Positions 38,574 to 58,251 of a stretch of DNA of 64,000 nt are shown piece after piece (within the stretch, counting starts at the first letter, position 1; every line of letters starts with the position of its first letter). The position numbers were made by a program, and so were the translations under genes. The stretch is from Melioribacteraceae bacterium (lineage in GTDB: Bacteria > Bacteroidota > Ignavibacteria > Ignavibacteriales > Melioribacteraceae): NCBI GenBank assembly GCA_021739765.1, contig JAIPBD010000003.1:62001-126000 (forward strand). The letters run 5' to 3'. The notes beneath the pieces are model-generated. The model ran no database searches. It was not told where the DNA came from and was given only the letters and a program-made list of their open reading frames with translations.

Positions 38574-39005
38574 TTATTCCGATCCATAGATACTCATAAA
38601 CTTCTCATATTCATCAGCAAAGGTGAGTTTTTTATGATGTTCTTTCTGATTCCGGATATAGGTTGCCACCTTCTCAACTTGCGATTCACTAATCGAAAAA
38701 GCACCATATCCGGTTTGCCAAGCAAATTTGACATTTAGAAAATCGGTCTGATTTATTCAATGTGAAGTATTTCCTTTTATTTTTTGCATAATCCCCGTTA
38801 AGGAATACTTTTGATTTTGCAAAAACAGTATGTGAATATGATCCGATGTACCGTTTATAATTTTTACATACGATTCAAGATCACCCTCTAATAATTCTTT
38901 GATGTGCTCAAATATTCGGTTCTCAAATTCCGGTTTTATCAGTGGTTGTCGGTTATAGGTTCCACAAATTGCATGTATCCAAATTTTAGTTAATGAGTGT
39001 GACAT
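38574..39005 (-). pseudogene. IS200/RAYT-type Y1 transposase, broken by one in-frame TGA
   Basis: 82 codons (MSHSLTKIWIHAICGTYN...), then TGA at 38757-38759, then 60 more in-frame codons to a TAA. Read through the TGA the product is about 143 residues and complete. It has the HUH metal motif DHIHILF (H56, H58) before the stop; after it come FAWQTGYGAFSISESQ, the catalytic-tyrosine helix VATYIRNQKEHH (Y116, Q120) and the family ending FADEYEKF. In relatives the residue at the stop is usually part of a K/S-W/F-I-N motif, so a TGG to TGA change is likely. The truncated product lacks the nucleophile and should be inactive. REP-like palindromes begin 15 nt upstream of its start. Confidence 0.85.
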
Positions 39006-39019
39006 TTTATAACCTCTGT

Positions 39020-39253
39020 AAACCGTTGAAACGGTTTCAGTTATTTTGTATTTACGTTATAACCCATGACTGAAGTCATGGGTTTTCCTTCCTATAATCA
39101 ATGTTTTTTATTTATACAGGACTTAAACCAAGGATTAAACATTTGATCATTTTTATCTCATGGTAATCAAATAATCATTACAATAAAATTAACCAATGGC
39201 TTTGGCCATTGGTTAATTGCCAATCTTTTGCATTTAAACCGTTTTATCGGTTT
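39020..39253. repeat. REP-like palindrome cluster A
   Basis: Four palindromes in 234 bp: AAACCGTTGAAACGGTTT (39020-39037), a 24-nt one centred on GACTGAAGTC (39061-39084), a 29-nt one centred on GGCTTTGGCC with AATTAACC arms (39189-39217) and AAACCGTTTTATCGGTTT (39236-39253). The same cores recur in clusters B and C. The cluster begins just upstream of the broken transposase gene, and its last palindrome touches the stop codon of the 151-residue gene. REP-associated Y1 transposases (RAYTs) are known to sit beside the palindromes they mobilise. Confidence 0.75.
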
Positions 39254-39707
39254 ACTTTCTTCCGGGGAATCTTTGTTTTAGATCATCGCAGATTGGTTTG
39301 GCGCCGGGCACATCCATCTTTGAAGCAAGTTTGACACTGTTGTAATAAGCTAATGAACCAATATATGCTTCACTTCCACTTAACATAATTGAATCATCCA
39401 AGTTCGAAACTAGTTGATTTAACGGATTAAATATTGTTTTTAAAGTTTGAACAGCGTCAAAATCGATTTTCATTTCATCTGCTTTCATATAGGGTGGTGC
39501 GAATTGTGGATTGCTTTCCGTGTATGAAATAGTTTTTTCCACGAAAGGAGTTGTTTTATCACTCATTTTGGGTATTTGATGCCTTTCCTCCGGTGATAAT
39601 GCAATTAGATATGGAGCTAATTTGGTTTGGATGTTTGTTACTGCTGTTTGAATTTCTTGCAATACTTCCGGTGGTATTTGAATTGATACTTGATTGCTTT
39701 CAGGCAT
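39252..39707 (-). CDS. Conserved hypothetical protein, all-helical
   Basis: 151 residues, MPESNQVSIQIPPEVLQEIQ..., without signal peptide or membrane helix. Predicted mainly helical; recognisable blocks are LSPEERHQIPKMSDKTTPFVEK near 40-60, an ESNPQFAPPYMKADEMKID segment, SNLDDSIMLSGSEAYIGSLAYYNSVK near 105-130 and a C-terminal VPGAKPICDDLKQRFPG. I recall homologous proteins in other Bacteroidota and related genomes, always without a function. A strong AAGGAG lies before the ATG. It lies between REP cluster A and the NACHT gene. Confidence 0.7.
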   Translation of the reverse strand: MPESNQVSIQIPPEVLQEIQTAVTNIQTKLAPYLIALSPEERHQIPKMSDKTTPFVEKTISYTESNPQFAPPYMKADEMKIDFDAVQTLKTIFNPLNQLVSNLDDSIMLSGSEAYIGSLAYYNSVKLASKMDVPGAKPICDDLKQRFPGRK

Positions 39708-39920: not shown

Positions 39921-42900
39921 TTATCTGTTATATCTGCAGTCCAAAACAAATGATTTAATTGCGCAATTTTTGTCCGATAAGCTCTGGGCTTGCCTCTCCA
40001 TTTCCTCTATTACGACTTCTATTGTTTTCTTTTTATTTTGTCTGAATCTATTATCATTTTCCTTAAATCTTTGCCATTCATCGCATAAATACCATCCGAC
40101 CAGATACAAACCAAAACGATAGGGGCGTTCCTTTAAGTAGCGTTCTTTTAGTTGTGTTTTCATTGATTCATGCAATTTTGGATTCCAGGAGCCTTTGACT
40201 TCAACAATCACAGAAATTTGTTCGTATTTATCTGATGTAGCATCTACAATTAAATCGACTTGCTTTCCTTTTTTCGTTCTATTAAACCTATCAATTACTA
40301 CTTCTGCGTTTACTACTATTGATTTCAAATCTTCTTTCAAATGGAATTGAAGCATGTCTGATAATGTAGATTCGTCTTTGGGAATATTAATCTTTTTTTC
40401 ACTCCAAAGCTGACGCACTTGCGGCGGTGTACCATGCATCTTTGCTTCAAGTCTTTTTAGTGAAGCTATGATTTCAGACAGCAATTCATCTTCATTTGAT
40501 ACAAGACGCTTTTTGTCATTTTTCAAGAATTCTTTTAATTCGGGAATATCATTTGGTTTCCATGCGTTGTATCTAACCAGCACCTTTGTGTCATAAAGGA
40601 TCTCTTTGAACATTGACTCCGCCGGATAATTCTTGACTAACAATTCAAGAGCACCAATGGATTCGGCTGTCTTTCTTTCTCGAATTGTCATTAGCAAGTT
40701 CGTTTTGAAGTCATTCAATTTATCATACGGCGAAACATAAGAAGCAAAATCATTCTCAGTTCGTTCAAGTTCTTCTTTGGTAAATAATTCTGCTATAATT
40801 AAGTATAATTCGACAAAAACTTGGATCGACGCATTGTTAAAAAAATCTGAATTGTAATCATCACGCTGCGCAATTCGTATTAAAATTTTTCTTGTGAGTT
40901 CACGATTTATGTTTTTATTATGTCCTAAATATTCAATAACCTCCTCAGATTTTATTTTAGCATTTAGAGAAATTCCCGAAATAAAATTTTCCAATTGATC
41001 GGATTCGGACGGAATGTTTTTTTTGGTTAATTCTGAGAAATATTTGATCAAATAATTTGGTGCTTGCTTACCTAAAAACCCGATGATCGAATTAAAGGAA
41101 CTTGGTTTCAAAGTGATACTAAGTTTTTTGAGTAATAACTCACTGTATTTATCATTCCAACATTGCTCATAAAATTTAAGACAAGTCAAAGATTCGTTTC
41201 TGTCTAATTCTGAATCAAGAATTTTTTCAAATAATTCTTCGAATATTTTGGGAATTTTCTGATGAATCTCTACAATTAATTTTTTTTGTGAATCTATTGC
41301 ATTGTCATCACTACCTTGGAGTGGGAAAGTAATTAGTACTGGGATCCATTTTTTGAGAACATTTATTTGTAGTTGGTTGAAGTAATCGTTTTCAAATCTG
41401 TGGAAATACAAGAGCAGCTTGTAAGCAGCATAATCTACCCGATTATATTGATTTTTTCCAAACCATTTCTTTGAATTACTTTCTTGCTCTAATAAGTAGG
41501 TTTTTCCTTTTCGTAATAATAAATCTATTTCTTCGTGATTTAGGTTTTTCCAACCCGGATGATTTTCAAGAATTGGATTAAGCTCACCAAAAAGTTCGTC
41601 GTTTACATGATCATAGGAAATAAAATAAATTAGACGCCAAACAGCACTTTTTGAATCGCTTTTTAGAAGATCGATATGGTATAGTAAACGTTCTTTGTGG
41701 CTTAAATATGAGAGACGGCTTTTACCATAGTAGGAAAAGGAGTGACTTTCTTTATATATTTTTTTTGCGTCATTCGCATCTTTGCCATTGAGTTCTATGG
41801 GTTGTAATAAACTCTTGAATACGACTTTTAATAGTTCATCCTCCTCAGCAAGGGCTAACATAATTTCTCGTTGTTCTGAATTCTCTTCATCAAATAATCT
41901 ATGGCAGAGGTTATAAAATGCTTCTTTATATTCTAATCGACACTCATTAGTACCTTTTTCTAAAAGCCATAAAAAATCGGATTTGTTTACAAGTCTTGTG
42001 CGATGTGAAGTTAAAGACCAAATGTTAACTTGAGGGTTAATCATTTTATTAATCAATAACTCAATCAATCTTTTTCTGGAATTTGTTTCGGATAACTTTT
42101 TAATAAAACGATCTTTGTTCTTCTGCTCAACAATATTTGAGTGATTATTTACTAAAGCTACCACAGCATCTGCATAAGAATTCAAAATGCTTTCATCGTC
42201 AAGAAATTCTAAAGCCTCTATCATTATCCCATCAACTATATCATCTAAATGATAGTTTGATACTATATTTTTCGCTCCTAATTTTTGGACCCACTTTAGT
42301 CCTATCAGAATTTCTCCCATATTTAAGTCTGCTTTGCCAAGATTTATCCCTCCAAGAAATACCACATAACTTCCAATGTACCTAGTATTTTTTCGAGGTC
42401 TTAATAGATGTATAATTTCCCCAAAATTAAGATGTTGGGGGTACAATAAAGAAAGACAATCACCTTTTAACTGATCATTATCATCGTCTGATAAATAGTT
42501 ATAAAGAGTGTTTTTTACTGCTTCAATGAAATCTCGATCATTATGCAAGTAATGTGCATCAAGAATCACTGTGCGCAAAATCGCCGGCATTGAAAATGTA
42601 TTTAATTGATTACAATAAAAGTCCTTTAACTCAACTAGCCCGCATTGATTTCCAATACAAATTGCCTCAATCTTCGTTTGGATACTTTTTGTTGAATCTT
42701 CGACAAATTCGATTATTAGTTTTGAAATGTCGGGAAAACTCAGCTTATGATATTGTTTAATAAGCCTATGCCTCGGGTAAAATATTTCACTACTATTTAC
42801 GCCATTCAATAGGCTAAAAAACAGAGTCCTTTTCAAATCGTTTTGTTGAAATAGTATATCGCACTTAAACATCAGAGTTAGATTCTCATTGAAGACTTTT

Positions 42901-44129
42901 GCAATTAAATCCGGTTTGATAGATAAAAGCCATCCTATGCTTTCTTCTAACTGAGGTATTGCGATTTGCTTATCGCCATCAAATTGAAAAAAAAGATTGA
43001 GTATTTGTTCATCCTGTAAACCCTTCTCATAAACGTAACTTGCACATAAATACTCCGCAAATGTTTGATGCGCCCAACTGTATTTATCACTTCCGTTCAA
43101 CACAAATAAACCGGTATCAATTGTAGCTAAAATCAATTTTCTATCAACTTCAACCGGCGGATCAAAATTGTTTTCCGCACCTATTAATTCATTGATAAAG
43201 ATTGAGTTGTTCGATTCTGTTTGCGTTGTTCGAGTTAAAGCCAAAGTAGATTTATTTGAAAGCAGCATTAAAAAGGCGATTCTCTTCGCAGCTATCAGTT
43301 TTTGATCAGATGCGTAAATGATTTTGTTGGATTCAGTACGAAGAGTATTGTGTTCATCCGAGACTAAATAGTAGAGCCCTTGTTCAAAAATTTCTTTTCT
43401 GGTCTTTGGTAATTCTCCTTTTTCATCAAAAACTCTGGTAATAAAATTTAGGGTAACCGGTCTACTTGCTAAAGCTCCAATTTCTTTTTTATAAATTTCA
43501 TCAAATAATTTGTCGGCATCCAATCCATTTTCTTCAAAAGTAGTTTTCGCGTCTTTACGTGTTAATGGTTGAAGTTCATAAACTTCACAATCGTTTTGAT
43601 ACAAGGATTTTAATCTTTCTTCAAGCGTTGAATGCCATTCTGCTGTTCTGCAGGTAATACGGATTTTCAACCCATCCCAATGCATCCTTTCAATCTCACG
43701 GGCGATTATACCAGCTATATTATCGATTTGTATTTTGCATTCATCCAGGCTATCAAGGAAAAGGTAAAATATTCTACCTTCCCTTTTAGCTTTTGAGAGA
43801 TTCTCATTTCTAAAAGAATCTTCCAAGAAAACTTTTTCATCTGAGTATTCTCCCAATTTGATATAAATAAAGTCATCATTGGTTAGTGCAAGATTTTCTT
43901 TTGTTGATTCAAATGCTTTTTTTAACTCTTCGGTTTTCCCTATTCCTGGTTCACCTAATAATGCAAGACACGGTATATGTGCAATTTCTTCAAATGATTT
44001 GATATCTTGAACGTAACTTGAGTAGTGGTTTTCAGGATCAAGTAAGAATCCTCCTTCGGTGTTTATATCAATTCTTCCGTTAGGTTTACACCAATATCGT
44101 TTCCAGTTATAATTTTTTTTTGTAGTCAT
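39921..44129 (-). CDS. NACHT NTPase with helical repeats and C-terminal PD-(D/E)XK-like nuclease
   Basis: 1402 residues. After a 45-residue leader comes a STAND/NACHT NTPase: Walker A GEPGIGKT (59-66), Walker B YLFLDSLDE (122-130), sensor RITCRTAEW (157-165), YELQPLT (184-190) and the winged-helix-end motif SWAHQTFAEYLCA (351-362). Residues about 380-1220 are a long helical-repeat region without named motifs, the place expected for target sensing. The C-terminus has a nuclease-like core: D1292 in QVDLIV and E1310-x-K1312 in VIVEVKGSW, followed by YLVGWYLCDEW. No membrane helix. Single gene with a TAAATTTG box 37 nt upstream (-33 poorly matched). NACHT proteins of this size are known anti-phage sensors; the effector being C-terminal is unlike Avs proteins. 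Defence function is inference. Confidence 0.85.
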   Translation of the reverse strand: MTTKKNYNWKRYWCKPNGRIDINTEGGFLLDPENHYSSYVQDIKSFEEIAHIPCLALLGEPGIGKTEELKKAFESTKENLALTNDDFIYIKLGEYSDEKVFLEDSFRNENLSKAKREGRIFYLFLDSLDECKIQIDNIAGIIAREIERMHWDGLKIRITCRTAEWHSTLEERLKSLYQNDCEVYELQPLTRKDAKTTFEENGLDADKLFDEIYKKEIGALASRPVTLNFITRVFDEKGELPKTRKEIFEQGLYYLVSDEHNTLRTESNKIIYASDQKLIAAKRIAFLMLLSNKSTLALTRTTQTESNNSIFINELIGAENNFDPPVEVDRKLILATIDTGLFVLNGSDKYSWAHQTFAEYLCASYVYEKGLQDEQILNLFFQFDGDKQIAIPQLEESIGWLLSIKPDLIAKVFNENLTLMFKCDILFQQNDLKRTLFFSLLNGVNSSEIFYPRHRLIKQYHKLSFPDISKLIIEFVEDSTKSIQTKIEAICIGNQCGLVELKDFYCNQLNTFSMPAILRTVILDAHYLHNDRDFIEAVKNTLYNYLSDDDNDQLKGDCLSLLYPQHLNFGEIIHLLRPRKNTRYIGSYVVFLGGINLGKADLNMGEILIGLKWVQKLGAKNIVSNYHLDDIVDGIMIEALEFLDDESILNSYADAVVALVNNHSNIVEQKNKDRFIKKLSETNSRKRLIELLINKMINPQVNIWSLTSHRTRLVNKSDFLWLLEKGTNECRLEYKEAFYNLCHRLFDEENSEQREIMLALAEEDELLKVVFKSLLQPIELNGKDANDAKKIYKESHSFSYYGKSRLSYLSHKERLLYHIDLLKSDSKSAVWRLIYFISYDHVNDELFGELNPILENHPGWKNLNHEEIDLLLRKGKTYLLEQESNSKKWFGKNQYNRVDYAAYKLLLYFHRFENDYFNQLQINVLKKWIPVLITFPLQGSDDNAIDSQKKLIVEIHQKIPKIFEELFEKILDSELDRNESLTCLKFYEQCWNDKYSELLLKKLSITLKPSSFNSIIGFLGKQAPNYLIKYFSELTKKNIPSESDQLENFISGISLNAKIKSEEVIEYLGHNKNINRELTRKILIRIAQRDDYNSDFFNNASIQVFVELYLIIAELFTKEELERTENDFASYVSPYDKLNDFKTNLLMTIRERKTAESIGALELLVKNYPAESMFKEILYDTKVLVRYNAWKPNDIPELKEFLKNDKKRLVSNEDELLSEIIASLKRLEAKMHGTPPQVRQLWSEKKINIPKDESTLSDMLQFHLKEDLKSIVVNAEVVIDRFNRTKKGKQVDLIVDATSDKYEQISVIVEVKGSWNPKLHESMKTQLKERYLKERPYRFGLYLVGWYLCDEWQRFKENDNRFRQNKKKTIEVVIEEMERQAQSLSDKNCAIKSFVLDCRYNR

Positions 44130-44385: not shown

Positions 44386-44583
44386 AAATTAATACGCCAG
44401 CTTCACATTGATAATTAACCCCCGGTTTCAACCGTGGGTTAATTGATAGGGAAAGAAATTTCGCAACCGATTTATCGGTTTCCAAGCAAACATTTTTAAA
44501 CCGTTGAAACGGTTTCTAATTTTGGTGTTCGGGATATTACCCACGACTGAAGTCGTGGGATAATCAAATTAATTACTTCAATA
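44386..44583. repeat. REP unit B
   Basis: About 200 bp with four palindromes: an AATTAACC-armed one centred on GGTTTCAACC (44413-44444), AACCGATTTATCGGTT (44465-44480), AAACCGTTGAAACGGTTT (44498-44515) and CCCACGACTGAAGTCGTGGG (44540-44559). Nearly identical along its whole length to unit C at 45014. Its right edge, read on the minus strand, still encodes ILLK-stop, the end of a T9SS tail, so it derives from the 3' flank of such a gene. Confidence 0.8.
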
Positions 44584-44720
44584 AAATCCTGACTTCTGCC
44601 AATTTGTATGACAAAAGCCATTTATTTCTTCAATAATTTGGTAAGAATTTGGATTTATTGTTGCTCTTAGAGTAATTGGTTGATTTTACATGACTAAAAA
44701 TGGCGCTTTTATTATTTACG

Positions 44721-44788
44721 AGGTGGGAAATAAAGTGGTTCCAAAGTGAGGAATAATCTGAACCCAACAGTGGGGAATAAACTGCCCC
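44721..44788. repeat. Three tandem 22-23-bp repeats, IS21-end type
   Basis: Three consecutive variants of an AGTGRGGAATAAWSTG-like unit: at 44721 (GGTGGGAAATAAAGTGG), 44743 (AGTGAGGAATAATCTGAACC) and 44766 (AGTGGGGAATAAACTGCCCC). Multiple subterminal repeats with this GGGGAATAAT-CTGAACC wording are known from the ends of IS21-family elements in Bacteroidota. No istA or istB remains. Confidence 0.5.
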
Positions 44789-44789
44789 C

Positions 44790-44919
44790 CGACAGTTTTT
44801 CCATTACCTGTTTGTTTTAAGACTTTTACTCGTCTTTTTTTATAATAAACGATTTGTACAGCACTTGATGACTTTGTCTTTACTTTGCGTATGGATAGCA
44901 CAAACAATATTCCTTGCAC
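44790..44919 (-). pseudogene. N-terminal remnant of an IS4/IS1634-type transposase
   Basis: From a GTG at 44919 the frame encodes about 43 residues with IRKVKTKSSSAVQIVYY and KVLKQTGNGKT, the pattern seen at the start of IS4/IS1634-like transposases (x-K-x-K-x-x-x-AVQI-x12-VLKHIGSGKT). The frame then runs into the IS21-like repeats and ends. No catalytic domain remains. Confidence 0.45.
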
Positions 44920-45013
44920 ACTTATTTAGTATGACAATTTAAGAATATTATTGCCTTTTTAATCCATTTTCCAACTTTTTATATGACGTGGCTTTTTTTG
45001 GCAGAAGTCAGGA

Positions 45014-45198
45014 AATTAATACGCCGGCTTCGCATTGATAATTAACCCCCGGTTTCAACCGGGGGTAATTGATAAGGAAAGAAATTTCACAACCGATTTA
45101 TCGGTTTCCAAGCAAACATTTTTAAACCGTTGAAACGGTTTCTAATTTTGGTGTTCGGGATATTACGCACGACTGAAGCCGTGGGATAATCAAATTAA
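45014..45198. repeat. REP unit C
   Basis: Near-identical copy of unit B. Palindromes: an AATTACCCCC-armed one centred on GGTTTCAACC (45040-45070, perfect here where B has one mismatch), AACCGATTTATCGGTT (45091-45106), AAACCGTTGAAACGGTTT (45124-45141) and a decayed GCACGACTGAAGCCGTGGG (45167-45185). It abuts the stop codon of the VCBS T9SS gene. Similarity to B continues into the last codons of that gene. Confidence 0.8.
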
Positions 45199-47022
45199 TT
45201 ATTTCAACAAAATCATTTTCCGGCTTTGATGGAATTCTCCGGCTGAGAGTGAGTAGAAATAAATTCCGCTTGGCAAATGATCAGCTTTAAATTCTATTTC
45301 GTGGGGACCGGGTTTCAATTCACGGTTTATGAGTGTTTCGACTTGTTCTCCGAGTACGTTGTAGATTCGTAATGTTGTTTGCGTGAATTGATTCTCCAGC
45401 GCTGCGGAGATTGCAAATTTAATTTTCGTTGTCGGATTGAATGGGTTGGGGTAATTCTGCATTAACTCAAATTTATCCGGTCCCGTAACATCAATCTCAA
45501 CGGTCTCCGAATATTCGTATTTACCGTCAAAGTCGATTTGTTTTAGTCTGTATTTAACTTTCCCCGCTGTTGGAGAAGCATCCACAAACGAATAAGATTG
45601 CGGTGAGTTCGTGGTTCCATATCCCACAACAAAACCAACCTTCTCCCAGTCAATTTGTTTTTCTACTGAATTCTGACTACTGATTTCTGACTTCTGTACC
45701 TCAAATCCATAGTTGTTCATTTCAGTAACAGTTTGCCATTTTAACAAAACAGATTTGAGTTCAACCGAAGCCGAGAACGACTTTAATTCGACAGGCAAAG
45801 GTGTAGTACCATTGAAATAGAGATTCAAATCTCCGTCGGGAGTTCCCATAACTAAGTCAAGATCACCATCGGCATCGAGATCGGCGAGGGTCGGAAAATA
45901 ACCAATCTCCGATTTAACTGAATCTAAAAGATTGGGAATTGTTTTCTTTGTGAATTTATGTCCATCTGATGATGATTCGTTTTTTAGAAATTGAATTTCA
46001 CCGTACTCATTTATTCTAATAATGTCATCTAGATCGTTTCCGTTTAAGTCACCTTTCGCAACTGCGCTTGTTGAATCAAAAATATTTGTAAAAGTTAGAT
46101 TAAGGGGATTAGCAATTGTACCGTTTATATTGTCCGCTTGAAATGAGATGCGGTGATTTAAAGGATAAGCGGAATTTGCGGAATGATCAAAAAGATAAAA
46201 GTTAATGCTATTCCCGGTAAAATCTGAGTCATGTATTAGACCAAAAAAGTATTTTTTTTCGTTAAGTTCTTGAGGAACAGAAATTGCCCTCATACTTCCT
46301 TCAATCACTGAAACAAGACGGTCGGACGATTCGATATTCTCATCATTAATTATAGCTGTTAGTGTGGAGTTAAATTTTAGATTTGTTGGGGCGTTAAAAC
46401 CGGTAATATCTGATGTGTCCAACTCCAAGAAAACTGGTGAGGCAGACGAACTGAAATTTTCATAGACTGCTGTTTTGTTTGAATTGTAAACCAATAAATC
46501 CTTGTCTGAATCGGAATCAATGTGGACAAAAGAAAATTGACTTGATTGGAATTTTTGAAAGAACGAGTTACTCTTTGGTTCTGTGGAAAATAGTGGTGAA
46601 TCTGCCGTCCCGATATTTTCGTAAAAGGCACCACCAACTTGATTTTGAGAATCTCTTTCTCCAACTATTAAGTCATAATCAGAATCACCATCAAAATCGA
46701 AAAACGATATTGAAGGTAAATTAAATTTGGAGAGCGATTGTATTTCATCAAATGGATTTTTGAGAGAATCCAACTCATATTTCGGAAATTGAGCAGTCCC
46801 CGTATTTAGGAAATAGATGATTTTGGGCATGTTTTGGGTTACTGAAACAATTAGATCTAAGTCGGAGTCGTTATCTAGATCAGCAAAAGCGGGGGCAGAA
46901 TTATTTAGATCTCCCGGAAACAGACCCGCAAATAAATCCAATTCTTTATCTGCGGGAATAAACTTTTGAGGTAAGATAGCTCCAGAAAGGAAAGTTAAGA
47001 ATGTTAACAATCGCAATAACAT
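45199..47022 (-). CDS. VCBS/FG-GAP repeat protein with T9SS type A sorting tail
   Basis: About 607 residues from ATG 47022 (a TTG 9 nt upstream is possible). Signal peptide MLLRLLTFLTFLSGAILPQ. Several FG-GAP/VCBS calcium-type repeats: AFADLDNDSDLDLIVSV near 45, SFFDFDGDSDYDLIVGE near 105, HIDSDSDKDLLVYN and TLADLDADGDLDLVMGTPDG near 375. A fibronectin-like module (VELKSVLLKWQTVTEMNNYGFEVQ) follows, then a roughly 80-residue T9SS tail with NYPNPFNPTTKIKF and LPSGIYFYSLSAGEF. Surface-anchored or secreted; likely adhesion. Starts 12 nt after the stop of the giant LamG gene. Confidence 0.88.
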   Translation of the reverse strand: MLLRLLTFLTFLSGAILPQKFIPADKELDLFAGLFPGDLNNSAPAFADLDNDSDLDLIVSVTQNMPKIIYFLNTGTAQFPKYELDSLKNPFDEIQSLSKFNLPSISFFDFDGDSDYDLIVGERDSQNQVGGAFYENIGTADSPLFSTEPKSNSFFQKFQSSQFSFVHIDSDSDKDLLVYNSNKTAVYENFSSSASPVFLELDTSDITGFNAPTNLKFNSTLTAIINDENIESSDRLVSVIEGSMRAISVPQELNEKKYFFGLIHDSDFTGNSINFYLFDHSANSAYPLNHRISFQADNINGTIANPLNLTFTNIFDSTSAVAKGDLNGNDLDDIIRINEYGEIQFLKNESSSDGHKFTKKTIPNLLDSVKSEIGYFPTLADLDADGDLDLVMGTPDGDLNLYFNGTTPLPVELKSFSASVELKSVLLKWQTVTEMNNYGFEVQKSEISSQNSVEKQIDWEKVGFVVGYGTTNSPQSYSFVDASPTAGKVKYRLKQIDFDGKYEYSETVEIDVTGPDKFELMQNYPNPFNPTTKIKFAISAALENQFTQTTLRIYNVLGEQVETLINRELKPGPHEIEFKADHLPSGIYFYSLSAGEFHQSRKMILLK

Positions 47023-47034
47023 GGTTATCAAAAT

Positions 47035-50000
47035 TTATTTAAGTAAAATCATTTTCTTAACATCGGTAAAGTTATTTCCACCGGAATTGTTATTTACATT
47101 TATCCGGTAAAAATAAATTCCCGAAGGTATTGAATAACCAAATCTATCTTTGCTGTCCCAATTAGTTTTATAGTAACCTGGATTCATTTCATGTTTGAGT
47201 ATATCAATTATCTTTTCACCGAGAATGTTGAAAACAGAGATCTCAACTAACCCACTTTCCGGCAAACCAAATTCGATTGTTGTTTCAGGATTAAATGGAT
47301 TTGGATAGTTCTGACTCAAACTAAATTCTTCTGGAATAAAGCCTTCATCCCATATTCCGAGAACGATATCTGTGAACACAAATGGGTTGCTAATATTTCC
47401 GAGAATAATATCAGATTCAAAGTTTACTTGTTCGGCTAGTTTTTTAAGTTCTTCAGTTCGCACATCAATAAACTTGAACTCAACACTACTTCCCGCTTGA
47501 ACCGAATCATATATCATAATAAAGAAATATGGTGAGTTATTTAAGATTACCGGTTCAGCTACACCCCTAATCTCATCATTAATAAATGCTCCCACGACAT
47601 AATTTGAGCTCACATCCAAACTATCCCCAATATTTATCTGTGCGGTAACCGTCATGTTATATTGGAATTTAGAAGGTTCAACCTTCCACGAAACAGAATC
47701 CGCAATGTTTGTTTTCTCAACCAATTCCGGGGAATTTGATTTTGAGTCTGATTTCTGAATTTCAGATGGATAAGTTAATGTGCCTGAATTGGTTGTATTC
47801 ATGAAATAAGCATGGCTCTTTTTCATGTGCGTTAAAGAACCCAACCATCCATATCCTTCAACGTAAAAAGCGAATTCGGTTTGACTTTTGATAAAATCAT
47901 CATCAACAAAACCACCGGTGAAAGAAGAAAGCGCTGAATTAATCTCATAATTCAACTGTGGAATATAACCGATGAAGGTCCAGCCCGAATTTAAATTAAC
48001 CGGAAATTTTGCGGGTGATGCAGGGGTTCCGAAAGTCTCCATTAAATTCGAATTTTCAAGATATATCATGTATCCGCTGGTGAGATCAATATCTGAAAGT
48101 GTTCCAGCCCATCCGGTTGATTGTCCGTATTGAATGAATCCGGTTTGACTTTTGATCAGATCACCTTCGGCTAAAGTAAGATGAGGACTTAAATAATCCT
48201 TTAGTAAACTGCTTTCTCGTTCCACATCGAAGGAAATCCAAGTCCACCCGGCATTTACATCTCTTCTCTGGAATATTTCATTTGTAGCGTGGAGATCAAC
48301 GGGATTTTTGATAGTTCCCTGAGTTGTATTATTCTGGAATGTAAAAGATTCAACTGTGCGGGCATATTCAACACCATCAAGTGCATCCCAAACCCTTAGT
48401 TGAATATCATCTCCCGAAATACTCTTTGAATAAATCGTGAGTAAAACTAAGTATTCATTGGTTTCATCATCAAACTCAATTTCCTGAACGTTAGCTAAAC
48501 CACGGCAATCCTGCCCCACAAACGCACCAACCATGTCGAATTTGTCAGTACTTTGCAAATTATCTATAAATAATTTTGCAGTAATATTCATTGTGTACTG
48601 ATAGTTTTCTGCAACCAAATTCCAAGATGGTGGGTCGGACATAACGCGTACATCAATCCTTAACTGCTCAGTTCCATTAAGTGTTTCGGCATCTAGCAGG
48701 GCTGTGTAGTCACCGTAATTTAGGTTTCTGTCGATGGTAAATGTTACTTCTTTTGATCCCGCTGAAACCACATTGTTTTCTTCGGGAAAAACGGTTAACC
48801 AAGAAGGTATGTTTGTAATCGTAAAATCATAAGATTCACTTCCTCGATTTATTAATCGTGTGGTCAACTTATTTGAAGAACTGCTGTACAAAGTATAATC
48901 AAGATTTGAAACTTCCCAAAGAAGGGGATTTCGATCTACATAAAATTGAAACACAACCGGATTATCGATTGAGTTATTTGCCAGATCTTGAATGCTGTTC
49001 AGAGAAACTTCCACTTGATTATTTTCAATAAACCGATTATCAACCTCAAGCCTGATGTAAATTTTATTCTCTTCAACCCTCCATGTGAAGGCAATTGGTT
49101 GTTCTGTATCCATATTCTTGATTTTGATACTGTCGTTATATGCGTTAATAGCTTTTATCGGTTCAGTAAATGAGATAATTATTTGGTCAGAAGGATCAAG
49201 AATTCCGTCCACGGGCTCTGGTTCATTCAATAATTGAGGAGCCTGTCTGTCGATTATTCCTGTAAATTCTTGTGAATATCCAATCTGATCAAGACGGCAA
49301 ACACTTTTGGCGCGGAATTTATATGTCCCATCGGGAAGATTTGTTACATCCCAATATGCGCGTTGAACCGGCCGATTTAGCAAAGTATCAACTGAGATTT
49401 CTACCGACTCGAACCAAGTTTCTTGAACTTTGTCATTATTTGATTTACTGATAAAGTTAACTGATTTCTGTGAACTAGAAGATTTGTCAGTTAAATCAAG
49501 TAACGCATATTCAACATTTCCCCTAGTAATAGAATTTTTTATTTGTATCTCTTCATTCTTATCGCTCGCTAATGAACCGGAATTTGCTGACACAGAGGTT
49601 CTCTCAATTACTAATCTTTGCAGATTGGGATCATCCAAATTGTATCCGCCAAGTAAAATTTCCATTCGATTATTAGAGTTTTCGTTGATTATCCAATTAT
49701 CGTGTTTGGATAAAACAGCAATATCCGAACATGGCGGAATGTAATGAACGTTGAATGATTTTATGTCGAAAAATAAAGTGCCTTCAGGTCCATCAGAGAA
49801 ATCATCACATAATGAAGCTAGCTTAATTTTTAATCCTTCATGATCATATGCTTCAGGTCCACGGCTTACAGTCATAGTAACGTTTACCGAGTTGTTGTTC
49901 AATTCACCGGGGATTTCAACAACGATCCCATCCTCTATTGGAATCCCATTAATCTTAACCAAAGCACCAAATGGATTGCTTTCCTGCAGAACAGACAGTT

Positions 50001-53000
50001 TATAATGCTGAGTTTCTTTTGTGGGGCTGGTGTTACCTAATGTCAAATTAAAAACAGCATCTTTAGTTGGAGGAACATCGACAATGGAAGTTGGATTTAA
50101 TTGAAGACTGACTCCTTCACGCGGGACAGTTCCTTCTTCCCAAGGGCACATGGATTGACCACCAACGGTTTTAAAGATTGGTGTTCCGTGCACGGGGTCG
50201 GTAAATATATCAACCGAGAATTGATCAGCACGCCCGCTTATTGCATCTCCACTCGCGTCATCATCACCAAGGATAAAGCCGATTGTTGTTACGGTTTCTT
50301 CAGTTTCAGAGTTAGATCTTCCGATATGAAAATTTACGTGTGATCTATTTGTAACAAACCCCCCTGCATTCTGAACAAGCAAACCAAGATTTGTTTCTCT
50401 CCAAATTGAAGAATTAAATTCCCCCCCCCAAGATTTTGTATATGATCTGGCGGATGAAACAGAAGTTTCGTACGAAGAACCGGCAGAGAATGTTATGTTA
50501 TTTGATTCTTGTGATATTTTATATGGTTCTAAATCGGTTCTAGCCTTTGTAGCAATGTTATCATCTACAATTGATTGCCATGTAATAGCATCTAAAGAAT
50601 CTTTCCGCGTACCTGCGGAAAGTAAATCCGGAATTATATTATTGATTATCGCATCTTCAGTATACATGAATGTTGTACTAAAACCGTTTGGAGAAGAAGT
50701 AACAACTTCACTTATTTTGAGCGAATCTCCATTTTGATCCCAATCTAATCTTCTTGCGACACCAAGAGCAAAATTGAAGGCTCCGCCTATATACAGATCG
50801 GAGTTAGAATCAGTACTAAATCGTTCATTAGTAGTAATAGTTGTAATCCACTCCTCGCCATTTTCTTGACTACCTTCCATAGATACATTTAATGTATTAT
50901 TTAGTACTTGTTCTACTGTAACAAATCCAAAAGTTGCGGTTTGTCCGATTCCTAAATAGACTTCTGTCTCGACACCAAAAGAAGTGCCAAAATCGAATGA
51001 TATCGCAAACGAATTCGTAGTGCTTTTCTCATAATACGCGCTGCTATTATCGCCAGGTGGAGTGTGAAGAATCAAATAAGGAATACTGGGTGAAGTTATC
51101 GTAATTGAGCTGCTTTCCGATAGACTATTCCCAATAATTACTGCCCACAAATCAGTTGTAACATTTTGCCCTGTTGAGTGGTTCTCAACTAGAAAGCTTA
51201 CTTTCTTCTGAAATGGATGAGAGGGATCAGCAATAAAACTTGGCAAATGAGGCTTTAAAACATGCTGAATCTTACCATCTGAAATGGGTTTTTCTATTGG
51301 ATCGTTTGTTCCGGTTATTTCATCAGTGATTTTTACCGTTCCTGAATCAATAAATGAAATATTATTATTTCCATAGTCTTCAAAAGCAGAAACTCCAATT
51401 TCATATTCATCTAATTGATTGAGAATTATTAAGCTGTCACCTTTATACGTCTCTTTTATAAATCCATTCAATCCGGTGATTTGCAACTCTGTTGGAGCGT
51501 ACCAGATAAATTTTGTTGATTTGTCCCCATCAAGCAAGGAGATAGATTTTCCCGAGTCAAAGCTATAAATATCCGGTCTATCTATGTGGTTTACCTCAAG
51601 AGTATATTCTAAAGGAGGTAAGTTCTGAATTGACAAATTGCCCGATGCATCTGTTGTATCGATAAACCACTCAACATTTTCGGGATAGGAACATGCTGAG
51701 GAACTACCTTTGTATTTAACTTCAAACGCGCCGATGGGGAAACTGTCGTTGCCACCGACCACGTCAACTGTAAGATTTTGCTTCTGGTAATCTATAAATT
51801 TAAGATCAGCAATCGGCGTACTTAAATTATCAAATTGGAAAAATGAAATCGGTTGTGATCCATTAGGATGAAATTTTATTAAATGATCATTATATCTCAC
51901 AAAAAGTCTTGCGCTGGTTTCAGGTAAGAATGTGGTGAAGAATTCACCATTTTGATTAGTTTTGACCTTTTGGGGGAAGAATGAGAGCGTATCTCCGGCA
52001 TTACCGTTATCATCAATAATCGAATACAATAACTCCGCACCATCCACTCCGCAGTTTGTTCCTTCAAAAAGAACGAAACCACTGACCGTTATTTCGGATT
52101 TATCAATAAAATTAATCTGATTTTGATTATTGAGAAGTCTAAACAGTACGGATTCTTCCTGAGGGACAAAATTTGGGTGATTTTCTTTGAAAGGTTTGAC
52201 AGTGTACTGAGTTCCGTTTTGGTAGTCATAAGAAATTCCTTCAAGCAAATATTTACCTTCGTTATCTGTGAAGGCACTAAGGTAAACCGGAGCTGAAGCT
52301 GAGCTCCAAATACTATTTTCGAGCGTTAAATTATTCCTGTTTTTTGTCCAATCGAAAACAAAATTTCCAGTCCCTTCATTGAATTTCCAGTATGCGACCA
52401 TATTTTCGGTATCCGAATCGGGTGTGTTTTGTTTATATTTTTCCAATTCCTCAACTGATCTTGCAGAGCTCCAAACTCGCATTTCATCGAGATTACCGGT
52501 AAAAAAGTTATCCCATCTATCCTTTCCAATTAATACCGGTGCTTCCGGGTTTGATATTGCCTGAATGCCAGCGGACTCAGTCAAATTTCCGTCAACATAT
52601 AATTTCATTACAGACAAATCATAAGTTACAGCAACATGATGCCACGTTCCAGATGTCAAACTTCCATTAACGGGATAAACTACCGTAGAACCATATTGAA
52701 ATTTGAGAATTTTTCCTTCCGTGAAAAGTTTGAATGCATTATTTCCATCGAATGATTTATCAAAAATTGTCTGGGATCCGGAAATACTATTGAGATAAAT
52801 CCAAGTTTCAATAGTGAAAGCAGAATCGGATAGAATGAAATTATTTTTTGCAGCAGACAAATAATCGTTTTGTCCGTCTAGTTCTACTGATGTGCCTACA
52901 AAATCTGATGAACCGTTTGCCGGAGTGACCCTAATTTGTACGTTTGGCACAGGCTTGCCAACTTGTTCATTAAAATCGGGAGTTTTAACTGAACCGAAAA

Positions 53001-53559
53001 TTGTCCCGCTTGCATTCGCAAATCCAATTGAATTCCCTTTATTGCTGCTCCCAAATCTATTTGAACTTATTACATCATATAAATAGAATGTACCGGGTTG
53101 AACTTGTTGATCAATAAATTCACGAGTTTGAGATGGGTCTGAAGTAGTGAAGATTTCCGATTCGTTTTTCGAAAGCGAAAAAATATTTTGAACTTGAGTA
53201 TTATCTTGTGCAACGGGTGGACTCAGTAGATCATTCTCCCAAGAAACAACAATTTTATCATTATACGTCCCTTGGCTAGCTTCAACAATGGGTGCTTCTG
53301 GTGCGCCCAATAATTTGCTCCACAAACCGTATGTTGCACGGTTTTCATTTATTTCATAATCGTTCGGATTTGAGGCAAAAGCTTGTCCTGCAACCAGAGT
53401 GATTTTAAAATTTCCATCGATTGTTTTAGAATTTAATCCCCCAATAGAGATTAAAGGTTTGCTGCTTTTATATTTCTTTTGGGGATAAACAATACTGCTC
53501 AATAGAAATAAGCAAATAAGCAAACTCGACCAATGCTTTCCAAATGAGATTCGATACAT
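47035..53559 (-). CDS. Giant LamG-domain secreted protein with T9SS tail
   Basis: 2174 residues. Signal peptide (WSSLLICLFLLSSIVYPQ). Fibronectin-like region about 85-180, a LamG/concanavalin domain about 220-415 (VELDGQNDYLSAAKNNFILS, WIYLNSISGSQTIFDK, WHHVAVTYDLSVMKLYVDG), CNA/carboxypeptidase-regulatory modules about 430-700, then a long region of Ig-like beta modules including SbsA-type PSDQIIISFTEPIKAINAYND near 1420. Two copies of a VGAF-(x)-RG-A module lie near 1640-1720 and 1955-2045, with a repeated WxWISFDV / SGWTFIGY unit between. T9SS tail NYPNPFNPETTIEFGLP near 2095. A surface adhesin is likely. AGGAGAAGAG precedes the ATG. Confidence 0.85.
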   Translation of the reverse strand: MYRISFGKHWSSLLICLFLLSSIVYPQKKYKSSKPLISIGGLNSKTIDGNFKITLVAGQAFASNPNDYEINENRATYGLWSKLLGAPEAPIVEASQGTYNDKIVVSWENDLLSPPVAQDNTQVQNIFSLSKNESEIFTTSDPSQTREFIDQQVQPGTFYLYDVISSNRFGSSNKGNSIGFANASGTIFGSVKTPDFNEQVGKPVPNVQIRVTPANGSSDFVGTSVELDGQNDYLSAAKNNFILSDSAFTIETWIYLNSISGSQTIFDKSFDGNNAFKLFTEGKILKFQYGSTVVYPVNGSLTSGTWHHVAVTYDLSVMKLYVDGNLTESAGIQAISNPEAPVLIGKDRWDNFFTGNLDEMRVWSSARSVEELEKYKQNTPDSDTENMVAYWKFNEGTGNFVFDWTKNRNNLTLENSIWSSASAPVYLSAFTDNEGKYLLEGISYDYQNGTQYTVKPFKENHPNFVPQEESVLFRLLNNQNQINFIDKSEITVSGFVLFEGTNCGVDGAELLYSIIDDNGNAGDTLSFFPQKVKTNQNGEFFTTFLPETSARLFVRYNDHLIKFHPNGSQPISFFQFDNLSTPIADLKFIDYQKQNLTVDVVGGNDSFPIGAFEVKYKGSSSACSYPENVEWFIDTTDASGNLSIQNLPPLEYTLEVNHIDRPDIYSFDSGKSISLLDGDKSTKFIWYAPTELQITGLNGFIKETYKGDSLIILNQLDEYEIGVSAFEDYGNNNISFIDSGTVKITDEITGTNDPIEKPISDGKIQHVLKPHLPSFIADPSHPFQKKVSFLVENHSTGQNVTTDLWAVIIGNSLSESSSITITSPSIPYLILHTPPGDNSSAYYEKSTTNSFAISFDFGTSFGVETEVYLGIGQTATFGFVTVEQVLNNTLNVSMEGSQENGEEWITTITTNERFSTDSNSDLYIGGAFNFALGVARRLDWDQNGDSLKISEVVTSSPNGFSTTFMYTEDAIINNIIPDLLSAGTRKDSLDAITWQSIVDDNIATKARTDLEPYKISQESNNITFSAGSSYETSVSSARSYTKSWGGEFNSSIWRETNLGLLVQNAGGFVTNRSHVNFHIGRSNSETEETVTTIGFILGDDDASGDAISGRADQFSVDIFTDPVHGTPIFKTVGGQSMCPWEEGTVPREGVSLQLNPTSIVDVPPTKDAVFNLTLGNTSPTKETQHYKLSVLQESNPFGALVKINGIPIEDGIVVEIPGELNNNSVNVTMTVSRGPEAYDHEGLKIKLASLCDDFSDGPEGTLFFDIKSFNVHYIPPCSDIAVLSKHDNWIINENSNNRMEILLGGYNLDDPNLQRLVIERTSVSANSGSLASDKNEEIQIKNSITRGNVEYALLDLTDKSSSSQKSVNFISKSNNDKVQETWFESVEISVDTLLNRPVQRAYWDVTNLPDGTYKFRAKSVCRLDQIGYSQEFTGIIDRQAPQLLNEPEPVDGILDPSDQIIISFTEPIKAINAYNDSIKIKNMDTEQPIAFTWRVEENKIYIRLEVDNRFIENNQVEVSLNSIQDLANNSIDNPVVFQFYVDRNPLLWEVSNLDYTLYSSSSNKLTTRLINRGSESYDFTITNIPSWLTVFPEENNVVSAGSKEVTFTIDRNLNYGDYTALLDAETLNGTEQLRIDVRVMSDPPSWNLVAENYQYTMNITAKLFIDNLQSTDKFDMVGAFVGQDCRGLANVQEIEFDDETNEYLVLLTIYSKSISGDDIQLRVWDALDGVEYARTVESFTFQNNTTQGTIKNPVDLHATNEIFQRRDVNAGWTWISFDVERESSLLKDYLSPHLTLAEGDLIKSQTGFIQYGQSTGWAGTLSDIDLTSGYMIYLENSNLMETFGTPASPAKFPVNLNSGWTFIGYIPQLNYEINSALSSFTGGFVDDDFIKSQTEFAFYVEGYGWLGSLTHMKKSHAYFMNTTNSGTLTYPSEIQKSDSKSNSPELVEKTNIADSVSWKVEPSKFQYNMTVTAQINIGDSLDVSSNYVVGAFINDEIRGVAEPVILNNSPYFFIMIYDSVQAGSSVEFKFIDVRTEELKKLAEQVNFESDIILGNISNPFVFTDIVLGIWDEGFIPEEFSLSQNYPNPFNPETTIEFGLPESGLVEISVFNILGEKIIDILKHEMNPGYYKTNWDSKDRFGYSIPSGIYFYRINVNNNSGGNNFTDVKKMILLK

Positions 53560-53588
53560 AATCTCTTCTCCTAAATTTTGCTCTTTGA

Positions 53589-54935
53589 TTATCTTCCCAT
53601 TTTAAAGTAATATACACTTAAGGATGTAGGCTGTTCAAAGAAGTCGAATTGATATGTTTCTCCTCCAATGACCGGAATTGTTCCTGTGAGCTGCCCATAT
53701 TCTGTTTCGAACCCTCCCAACTTTACCCAGCTTCCGCTATCTTCTCTTAAAAAGAAAGCGAAGTTAAACGGTCCGCCTCTATCAGCAGTAATAACGACGA
53801 AACCATCACTTTCAAAAACCATATCGGCATCAAGTGTATTTATATCATCTTTCGTCCATCGTGTATTCTTAGAAATCATTCTTACTATACCCCTGACGTC
53901 AAGATTCCCTTCAGGGTCATCGGTTCCGATTCCAATTCTTCCATCTGCTCGAATTGTAAGGTTATATCTAAAATCATCAACAAAATGCTGGTTGCCTGAG
54001 GGATCGGCGCTTTCACTGTATTTGATCCCCTTAAAGAATAATTCGCCACCTGTATTATACATCATAGCTCCGGTGCGATTTGGATCATCGGCTTTCATCC
54101 AAAAATTATTGTTGTCTTCAGCTGATAGAATGGCATTAAAACCAAATACTACTCCCGGCCAGTTGTAATCAGAAGAGGAAATTTCGAATTGATCTGAAAA
54201 CCTTACACCGAAACCAACCCCTCTTGAATAAATATCTAGAACACCTCTTGGTTCATGTCCCAATCCATATCGGAGGCTCAGTTGGGAAGATGGGTTTAAA
54301 TGCAATAATTGTGTTCCCATTAAAGCCGTTGCCGATTCACGCATTAGATAAAATCCTTTATCTGAAACCATGGAGGATAGATCCTGACCGGAACCTTTCC
54401 CTGCGCTAAGATAAGTGAAGGTGCCGAAAGTTGAGGAAGTCGCATGCTCAAGTGTGTACCTGTTATTTGCATTTTGGATTCCCCAGCTATTTGGGATATT
54501 CATAAATTCGTCATTCAACTTTAGTGATCCCCCCAGAATTACATCTCCTGCAGAAGGGTATTGATTTGTAGCACTCTCGGGGCTGAATAAATAGGGCGAC
54601 ATTGAAAGTCGTGAGCGCTCAGAAACTTCCAATCCATCAATTTCAACACCAAGCCAATAGGGTTTGCTAAAATCTAATGAACGGAATTCAATTTCATTTA
54701 TACTCCCCAAATCAAGAGAGTAAACCCCATTTACAATTGAAGGCGTATGATTTTCACTAAAAACTTCCGTCCCGGCAGTTTCGGATTCGTATAATTTAAG
54801 GAGCATCTGGTAATTGCCATCGCTCACCGTTCTGTTCTCTGAATCACGCAAGACTCCCTGCACATTTAAGGTCTGTGCATTCAAACTTGCAAAAACAAGA
54901 AATAGAATACATAGTTGAAAATAGAATCTTTTCAT
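53589..54935 (-). CDS. Exported tail-fibre-like protein
   Basis: 448 residues, signal peptide MKRFYFQLCILFLVFASLNAQ. The first 120 residues (TLNVQGVLRDSENRTVSDGNY ... SRLSMSPYLFSPESA) are an Ig-like domain frequent at the start of Bacteroidota fibre proteins; the middle is glycine/asparagine-rich beta structure; near 330 stands LTIRADGRIGIGTDDPEGNLDV, the repeat found in trimeric tail-fibre and surface proteins. There is no T9SS tail and no intramolecular chaperone domain. First gene of a leftward trio with the LamG and VCBS proteins (29-nt and about 12-nt gaps). Confidence 0.75.
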   Translation of the reverse strand: MKRFYFQLCILFLVFASLNAQTLNVQGVLRDSENRTVSDGNYQMLLKLYESETAGTEVFSENHTPSIVNGVYSLDLGSINEIEFRSLDFSKPYWLGVEIDGLEVSERSRLSMSPYLFSPESATNQYPSAGDVILGGSLKLNDEFMNIPNSWGIQNANNRYTLEHATSSTFGTFTYLSAGKGSGQDLSSMVSDKGFYLMRESATALMGTQLLHLNPSSQLSLRYGLGHEPRGVLDIYSRGVGFGVRFSDQFEISSSDYNWPGVVFGFNAILSAEDNNNFWMKADDPNRTGAMMYNTGGELFFKGIKYSESADPSGNQHFVDDFRYNLTIRADGRIGIGTDDPEGNLDVRGIVRMISKNTRWTKDDINTLDADMVFESDGFVVITADRGGPFNFAFFLREDSGSWVKLGGFETEYGQLTGTIPVIGGETYQFDFFEQPTSLSVYYFKMGR

Positions 54936-55182
54936 ATCTACCTCGAAGTATTAAACTATAATATGTTTTTTAAACGGCTGCCAGAAGGAGTACTGGAGTT
55001 TTTGAGGTGGAAAAATAATTTAGATTAATTAGCATTGAGCTCCCTCATCAATATCAATTAAATCAGATAATCCGACAGTCTATCTAAAAAAATATAAGAA
55101 TACCGTATTAATATGTCAAGGCGATATCAAAACTTAATCTATCTTGATTTAAATATGGGAGAATTCGATCAAGTGCAAATTA

Positions 55183-58100: not shown

Positions 58101-58251
58101 CACCTGTGGGAGAGTTCCAATAGTATGCCTGCAAAAAAACATCGGATTTAGGATTGTTTGAAGTAAGTGGATTGTTGTTGTTTTTGGTTTTGTCTCCCTC
58201 AGTAAAACCAAACATCAGAATGGATAACAGGATTAAACTAAGCTTCCTCAT
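55183..58251 (-). CDS. Alpha-amylase (GH13) with Ig-like modules and T9SS tail
   Basis: 1022 residues with signal peptide. GH13 barrel about 35-500: DVVLNH (133-138), nucleophile D232 in GFRLDAAKH, acid/base E258 in SVSEAFDG and D330 in FVENHD, so all three catalytic residues are present. Two Ig-like (He_PIG) modules follow (about 520-605 and 610-690), then a carbohydrate-binding-like beta domain (about 700-915) and a T9SS tail with NYPNPFNPTTKIKFAIP near 940. Secreted starch or maltooligosaccharide hydrolase. The tail is almost identical at DNA level to that of the VCBS gene 10 kb away. Confidence 0.93.
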   Translation of the reverse strand: MRKLSLILLSILMFGFTEGDKTKNNNNPLTSNNPKSDVFLQAYYWNSPTGGIWWDSLAALAPEIASAGFSAIWTPSPVKGSGGGLDMGFVPYDHYDFGNFNQKGTVETRFGSRKELVKMIDVFHNVGVQVFSDVVLNHMGGGEEKVPYECAPAGHSDSSWLVFNYPNGSGRFPKDASYFYPNSQTCNVDAPYHGPLEWGEWFAHDRDFVKDSLIAWGKYLKEVMKFDGFRLDAAKHIDPVFMGQWLAATNSGGFSVSEAFDGQDFIKWWLGEVQNNGGNTTMFDFPLRYTLKDMAENTSGTFNMNNLDNAGLVNAGISGFNVTTFVENHDFDRIGFDGEGADSPSHQPIVNGKDLAYAYTIFSEGRPCVFFKDYFEYGLRGKIDTLMWIRQNYLGGGTTKRNGLDVYYIREDGNQNQGELSDDIYIARRNGHENQSGGYLLINDNPNFWIDVWVDTEMPVGTIYRDFIGHDSDKEVVGPANMGGKNRVKLWVPPRSYTVYVANPTKDINNPPVLEELPNLIAYTNSDFNFKTNFSDANKDKLTFSLSGNPAWLNIDQSGNLYGKPSSNDTLVSTVILSIMDEKNESVADTFDVKVLFNTPPILEQISKQQIKATKRIQLQAEASDIENDTLRFEFLASPSWLKLGEYSGEISGTPAVEDTGKYDITLRVGDGKGAFDSTFFKIDVVENVDSVIATFDKPIIDGNVTVGTEDWYSEWLLVEDDSADGFWGAKNEIYGLYSTWDADSLYVGIDYYLNDNYNTLVFYLDAGLDSGVTDFNSTNTFKGEYAKNFQFKSDDAINFLLAAYYLDDPSFFRIDSNNTYNITENIHGVRGTDANDLEIAIAWNEIYGLGEGKIKPGVELKMITAIAGGLNYGATDSAPDNDDVNGDSGPDSLTNLVKITPDLDNDGFPDPTVFIRDSVTSVIESEFMPTDFVLYQNYPNPFNPTTKIKFAIPAALNNQSAQTTLRIYNVLGEHVETLINRELKPGIHEVEFKADHLPSGIYFYSLSAGEFHQSRKMILLK

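Follow-up and report, generated by a model that had tools for sequence, protein, structure and literature searches.

The gene at positions 39921 to 44129 of the 64,000-nucleotide stretch of Melioribacteraceae DNA analysed here (the whole of which is referred to as the window) codes for a protein of 1402 amino acids (aa). We interpret it, with a probability of about 0.7, as a single-gene, NLR-like phage-defence protein of reversed domain order, in which a helical arm would sense the phage, a NACHT ATPase would oligomerise and a C-terminal PD-(D/E)XK nuclease would cut DNA. An antiphage role, taken by itself, is somewhat more probable than this complete model and is very likely. The architecture of the protein and the predicted folds of both its ends are supported by sequence and modelling. 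Support also comes from the invariance of catalytic and nucleotide-binding residues among its relatives, from the way in which the chassis carries other effector-like domains at this C-terminal position in some relatives, and from the patchy distribution of the relatives, some of which are found on conjugative plasmids, and their defence-rich neighbourhoods.

Domain architecture and invariant residues

The features of the gene are as follows.

39921..44129, minus strand: complete gene for the NACHT - HEAT-like repeat - PD-(D/E)XK protein, 1402 aa, uninterrupted from its ATG start
44091..44111, minus strand: N-terminal YxWxRxW subfamily signature, residues 7-13 (alignments)
43530..43964, minus strand: NACHT NTPase domain, residues 56-200 (PF05729 and structure model)
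43932..43955, minus strand: Walker A, GEPGIGKT, residues 59-66 (alignment of 65 cores)
43740..43760, minus strand: Walker B, residues 124-130 (D126, D129, E130; 65/65 cores)
43050..43076, minus strand: winged-helix histidine motif WAHQTFAEY, residues 352-360 (H354, E359; alignment)
40563..42881, minus strand: HEAT-like helical repeat region, residues 417-1189, proposed sensor arm (AlphaFold2 model, Foldseek)
40530..40574, minus strand: module junction, residues 1186-1200 (RYNAWKPNDIPELKE; identity drop in six pairs of relatives)
39924..40493, minus strand: predicted C-terminal PD-(D/E)XK nuclease domain, residues 1213-1402 (model and invariant residues)
40302..40304, minus strand: E1276, just ahead of core strand 1 (43/43)
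40254..40256, minus strand: D1292, start of strand 2, proposed metal ligand (43/43)
40194..40202, minus strand: E1310-x-K1312, strand 3 (both 43/43)
40152..40154, minus strand: Q1326 (with Y1331), in the next helix, QxxxxY motif (both 43/43)

The original prediction, made from the letters of the window, had described a solitary leftward gene at this position, with a complete NACHT module near its N-terminus, about 840 residues of helical repeats and a nuclease pattern formed by D1292 and E1310-x-K1312, and this description was confirmed. No gene overlaps or abuts the reading frame; an open reading frame (ORF) of 151 aa follows downstream on this strand after a gap of 213 bp. The N-terminal signature is invariant at Y7, W9, R11 and W13 in an alignment of 4 sequences, and in 65 sequences R11 is invariant and W9 and W13 are kept in at least 90%. 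The NACHT module gave a sub-threshold match to Pfam PF05729 (E 7e-5, 23.1 bits against a curated cut-off of 26.7), which is backed by the structure model, where the core resembles NLR inflammasome proteins best, NLRC4 among them. The Walker A residues G59, G64 and K65 are present in 65/65 cores, position 66 being T or S in all of them, and the accompanying Walker B with its DxxDE is of the kind found in NACHT or NLR-like STAND ATPases. Helical and winged-helix domains are likewise present C-terminal to the ATPase, with H354 in 65/65 cores and position 359 occupied by E in 62 and by D in 3. In the AlphaFold2 model of residues 1-1195 (mean pLDDT 87.2) nearly everything beyond residue 390 is helix; the Foldseek matches of this region include karyopherins and CAND1, and the matches to the profile of alphaRep, a designed HEAT-like repeat, near residues 513-543 are weak (best E 5e-4, no stretch passing alone).

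The C-terminal domain almost certainly has the PD-(D/E)XK nuclease fold. Its model (pLDDT 88.3, pTM 0.84) shows an alpha-beta-beta-beta-alpha-beta core, in which D1292 opens strand 2 and E1310-x-K1312 lies in strand 3, and the folds closest to it include those of McrC and restriction enzymes. The nuclease alignment consists of the window protein and the 42 loci that match through to the C-terminus, its rows not having been picked by catalytic residues, and D1292, E1310 and K1312 are all kept in 43/43 of these domains (42 distinct, as the rows of L099 and L100 are identical). The residues E1276, Q1326 and Y1331, which the original prediction did not list, are equally invariant; in 43/43 rows, therefore, the D ... 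(D/E)xK pattern is accompanied by the upstream E and the Q of the following helix.

Exchange of C-terminal domains and distribution of the relatives

A search of plasmids returned 52 records with matches, of which 5 were covered over at least 80%, and conjugative plasmids of Dolichospermum and Bradyrhizobium carry relatives covered to this extent; a relative from a Streptomyces plasmid (L034), matching in two pieces, was kept out of the alignments. With an alignment of four relatives, 99 relatives were found in genome contigs, and the best 80 of the 99 were kept, a match to one of two degenerate N-terminal patterns being required of them. Due to this selection, the following counts of C-terminal types hold for that sample only. 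The match extends into the nuclease in 42 of the 80 loci, and in 10 there is instead an unrelated tail of 132-139 aa. Five loci carry a CHAT domain (Pfam E 4e-12 for L063, the one tail scanned; L068, L085 and L110 cluster with it and L114 was judged by eye) and five another tail of 102-173 aa, in four of which a hydrophobic stretch was seen by eye. Three have a short end, one has a hydrolase-like domain (E 4e-5, below the cut-off), one ends with its contig and 12 are partial. In the remaining locus, from Methanothrix (L074:6240-10952), an HD-CE domain is present at the N-terminus (E 4.7e-26) and nothing lies C-terminal to the core, and hence in this protein the effector seems to be at the opposite end.

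If the C-terminal labels are placed on a tree of 65 cores (the twelve partial loci being left out, and L086 remaining unlabelled as its contig ends there), then at least 15 changes are needed. For nuclease versus the rest, the number of changes is 7 without the unlabelled row and 8 if this row is counted as other, all 8 being forced by starred branches in a quick search with SH-aLRT values only. In 6 of 7 pairs that were checked, core identity is 68-81%, but from a shared RxxTWxP-like motif, or from a point no more than about 15 residues past it, only 12-16% is left. The seventh, the more diverged hydrolase pair (L048/L077), shows no such step and was not accepted as an instance of a sharp junction. 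This exchange of domains is the strongest new evidence for the C-terminus as the effector position. As relatives bear other domains in the place of the nuclease, the protein probably belongs to a little-described type of phage-defence sensor; among the matches listed and the passages cited, none was found that describes unlike effectors being exchanged at a single junction of a NACHT-HEAT chassis. The 135-aa tail, for which no Pfam name was found, recurs on propeller-like, HEAT-repeat and pentapeptide-like proteins and also alone (L187, L188, L189 and L190; 3 of the 5 cyanobacterial genomes searched, domain names by eye), and it is probably an adaptor domain, of the kind described as effector-associated domains in passages of PMC7159879 and PMC8195603.

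These results also bear on another explanation, in which the protein acts directly, like a restriction enzyme: the NACHT part would serve the nuclease as regulator or motor, in the manner of McrB and McrC, cleavage would be confined to foreign or modified DNA, and the cell would survive. The presence of McrC and restriction enzymes among the closest folds, and the union of ATPase and nuclease in one large protein, agree with it. However, the core matches NLR inflammasomes best, and the CHAT, hydrolase-like and other domains that replace the nuclease are ill-suited to a motor that discriminates between DNAs, and this explanation is therefore improbable, although it stands ahead of the other alternatives considered below.

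The relatives are patchily distributed. The tree output names 14 phyla, archaea included, although many entries are metagenome bins whose phylum names can be wrong. In the class of the host, a whole-length match is present in 2 of 295 genomes, 7 more having weaker partial matches only, and among 39 genomes of near relatives the host itself is the only one with any match. Its genome holds no second match of this kind besides the 1402-aa gene, and the 30 genomes reached via the loci each hold one long match, their remaining matches being short. In the tree the 1402-aa protein is closest to one from a Stygiobacter genome (Melioribacteraceae), to which its core is 28% identical. The identical 792-aa relatives L099 and L100, which lack profile positions from about 158 to 782, come from contigs labelled Desulfobacteraceae Eth-SRB1 and Argoarchaeum Eth-Arch1, and are probably one sequence binned twice.

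Relationship to known systems and genomic neighbourhood

The closest named family is EruA, which carries an antiphage label in NCBIfam (NF058535, 'NACHT domain-containing antiphage protein EruA'). Its profile matches residues 42-1353 (E 1e-57, 196.1 bits) collinearly over the full length, i.e. positions 14-1278 of a model of 1318, and EruA has the same order of NACHT, helical middle and C-terminal domain of the same type. In hhalign comparisons of EruA-type proteins with the subfamily of the 1402-aa protein, the probability is 99.4% (E 7.5e-22) for the C-terminal domain and 100% (E 7.6e-44) for the core. Nine EruA-type loci were examined, of which 2 pass the equivalog cut-off of 1000 bits and 7 approach it (545-755 bits), and five of the proteins were aligned; five further EruA-type genes lie outside these loci. 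In 9/9 of them a gene for an AAA_14-DUF4143 ATPase is directly upstream (7 full and 2 partial, one of the latter at a contig start and the other beside a masked stretch). In contrast, tblastn found none in the 80 loci L035-L114 (in 73 of which the upstream sequence extends to 1.5 kb or more) or in the 64-kb window, so that EruA differs in an adjacent partner, which it is not known to require and which was not seen beside the 1402-aa gene. EruA is unlike the subfamily also in that the latter has the N-terminal YxWxRxW and an exchangeable C-terminus. Further, the two strict EruA proteins (L158 and L159, alike in 1338 of 1340 letters) read KRAAIR where four other aligned proteins have RADIR, i.e. 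Ala for the Asp equivalent to D1292. In L158 an ORF for a DarG-like macrodomain (192 of 250 bits) adjoins the EruA gene.

Based on the shared core and C-terminal domain, the missing partner and the residue difference in strict EruA, the 1402-aa protein is a sister of EruA and not an EruA. It could alternatively be a diverged EruA using an AAA_14-DUF4143 ATPase encoded elsewhere in the genome, as the full-length homology and the common C-terminal domain would allow; this is unlikely, as the partner accompanies all nine EruA-type loci but none of the 80 relatives nor the window gene (of the host genome, the search covered the 64-kb window). The related model HyoA (NF058534) gave no match to the 1402-aa protein at E <= 1, and among the matches listed there was no publication treating EruA or HyoA as an antiphage protein.

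In the 1402-aa protein the ATPase begins at about residue 50 and the effector domain occupies residues 1213-1402, and thus it does not have the N-terminal effector of bNACHT and Avs proteins. The Avs / AVAST proteins form a clade other than NACHT, and NAIP-NLRC4 and NLRP3 are animal proteins with an N-terminal death-fold domain and C-terminal leucine-rich repeats. The inflammasome proteins differ in being without a nuclease, and Avs / AVAST proteins (Avs5 structures 9nc9 and 9jap) in that the effectors of such proteins are usually N-terminal. bNACHT25 and bNACHT32, described in part of PMC12169576 as NACHT antiphage proteins with a PD-(D/E)XK DNase effector, share NACHT and nuclease with our protein, but they have the nuclease at the N-terminus and sense with the C-terminus. 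Passages of PMC10907252 describe the effectors of characterised antiviral STAND proteins as usually N-terminal, and the effector-first order is 'typically' found according to part of PMC13092281. However, predicted GT4 effectors are, in a portion of PMC8195603, often C-terminal on NACHT or other STAND ATPases; these effectors are glycosyltransferases rather than nucleases, and they provide a precedent for the C-terminal position, unusual as it is. The reversed order that the original prediction had emphasised hence stands, as the effector is C-terminal against the usual arrangement, but it is not peculiar to this protein, since EruA shares it.

For the neighbourhoods of the relatives, five ORFs were picked by hand at each of 29 loci, and proteins above 1500 aa were dropped (2 of 145 in the test set, 4 of 143 in the control). 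The neighbours (143 proteins) matched 113 PADLOC families at E <= 1e-10, whereas control genes about 25 kb or farther off on the same contigs (139 proteins) matched 8 (IetA, TIR and TRIP13 models); these figures count families, not distinct proteins, and, to the detriment of the comparison, include several variant models of one system. Among the first 25 of the 113 families are pAgo, LmuA/LmuB, a type III restriction enzyme, PD-T4-6, AriAB and PDC families, and Pfam, run without a control set, found phage integrases in 4/143 and PIN domains in 4/143. Defence-rich neighbourhoods are thus a property of the homologues, the window itself excepted. These counts, together with the absence of any copy within 15 kb downstream of uvrA in 12/12 relatives of the host, do not place the relatives in conserved housekeeping operons, and the predicted C-terminal fold is not one unrelated to PD-(D/E)XK. 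These were the two findings on which the original prediction was to be given up, and its interpretation as a whole is supported.

The features around the gene in the window are as follows.

39020..39037, no strand assigned: REP-like palindrome AAACCGTTGAAACGGTTT, left flank (palindrome search)
44420..45214, no strand assigned: right flank, two 169-nt direct repeats (44420-44588 and 45046-45214; 92%), each with the AAACCGTTGAAACGGTTT palindrome
44498-44515 and 45124-45141, no strand assigned: the right-flank copies of the AAACCGTTGAAACGGTTT palindrome
38646..38990, minus strand: remnant of an IS200-type (Y1) transposase (PF01797, 78.7 bits, one internal stop, TGA)
39252..39707, minus strand: the 151-aa ORF, 213 bp downstream, of no known family, left out of the system

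The genome has 4 exact copies of AAACCGTTGAAACGGTTT, 3 of which flank the NACHT gene, and 8 copies at up to 1 mismatch, the reversed control giving 0. Palindromes and broken transposase together look like a REP/RAYT-type arrangement. They bear out the repeat-bounded part of the accessory island that had been predicted; however, among 47 hand-chosen ORFs of the window (not including those at 9-1769 and 47035-53559 or any that overlap) no other defence system is recognised, and the window shows no defence island of the kind that had been taken as the setting of this gene. The 47 ORFs match 8 PADLOC families, in our reading apparently generic ATPases, regulators and an amylase, and for this reason the window copy stands alone.

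Relatives of the 151-aa ORF are present in 18 of 197 genomes of the class, the host included, in up to 4 copies. A fixed pair with it was rejected, as of its 18 genomes, perhaps not all sampled, the host alone has a whole-length match to the NACHT protein. In genome G020, a 655-aa NACHT protein is encoded at a distance of about 5 kb from one relative of this ORF. A comparison with empty sites was also abandoned: nine window ORFs downstream were absent within 15 kb of uvrA in the 12 relatives, bar secretion-tail matches in one, and due to this no empty site can be defined. On the other side, adjoining the NACHT gene, three large secreted-type proteins with Por_Secre_tail (610, 2174 and 1022 aa) follow in succession at 45199-58251 on the minus strand, a 448-aa ORF without a Pfam match sitting between them.

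Many bacterial STAND ATPases are regulators, and a regulatory or developmental protein with no role against phages would suit a window without other recognised defence systems, but the invariant nuclease residues, the exchange of effectors, the patchy distribution, the defence-rich neighbourhoods of the relatives and the antiphage name of the nearest family make this the least likely of the explanations.

Proposed mechanism and significance

Several points weigh against a defence nuclease of the kind proposed. No second defence system was recognised among the 47 ORFs scanned in the window, and their 8 PADLOC families are no lower than the 8 from 139 control proteins. PADLOC of 2023 has no model for the protein, and together with PDB sequences and phage records gave nothing useful for it. 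The score of 196.1 bits is far below the EruA cut-off, and as strict EruA proteins are without the Asp matching D1292, some members of the wider family may do without a working nuclease. With Foldseek alone, no PDB structure matched the nuclease at E <= 1e-3, and the top ten include RNA polymerase subunits, Rab3B and HopZ1a alongside MspJI and BamHI. Further, the exact position of the protein in the tree is unsure due to its long branch, and as C-terminal effectors would lie along the rim of an NLR-like wheel, the effect of oligomerisation may differ from that in proteins with N-terminal effectors.

For the single-gene defence protein that we favour, we infer sensing by the repeats, oligomerisation and degradation of DNA in the following manner. 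At rest the NACHT module would hold ADP, and the winged-helix histidine, whose role is taken by analogy from NLR proteins, would help to keep it shut. The helical arm may bind a phage product or sense a disturbance caused by the phage, and exchange for ATP and oligomerisation would then follow, as the NLRC4-like fold and the intact Walker A and B suggest. This would bring the C-terminal nuclease domains together, which would cut phage and probably host DNA, the infection being stopped at the cost of the cell.

More broadly, the evidence is evenly poised on whether these proteins make up a single-gene immune family as yet without a name, recorded from at least 14 phyla (archaea included), in which a NACHT-HEAT chassis trades nuclease, CHAT, membrane, hydrolase-like and adaptor weapons at one C-terminal plug-in junction, one archaeal member being reversed. 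Bacterial NACHT and STAND defence proteins are described, in passages of the literature, as effector first and sensor last, usually or always, whereas here an NLRC4-like switch would be retained with exchangeable effectors behind the sensor arm. If this is true, then activation of the effector would take place where the sensor arm ends and not at the hub of the wheel, in a geometry that differs from that of inflammasomes, resistosomes and Avs, and one may ask by what route the signal travels to so distant an effector. The natural domain swaps, in which cores 68-81% identical bear unrelated tails, are suited to testing such activation, and reading the domains past the junction motif may provide a route to new effector domains.

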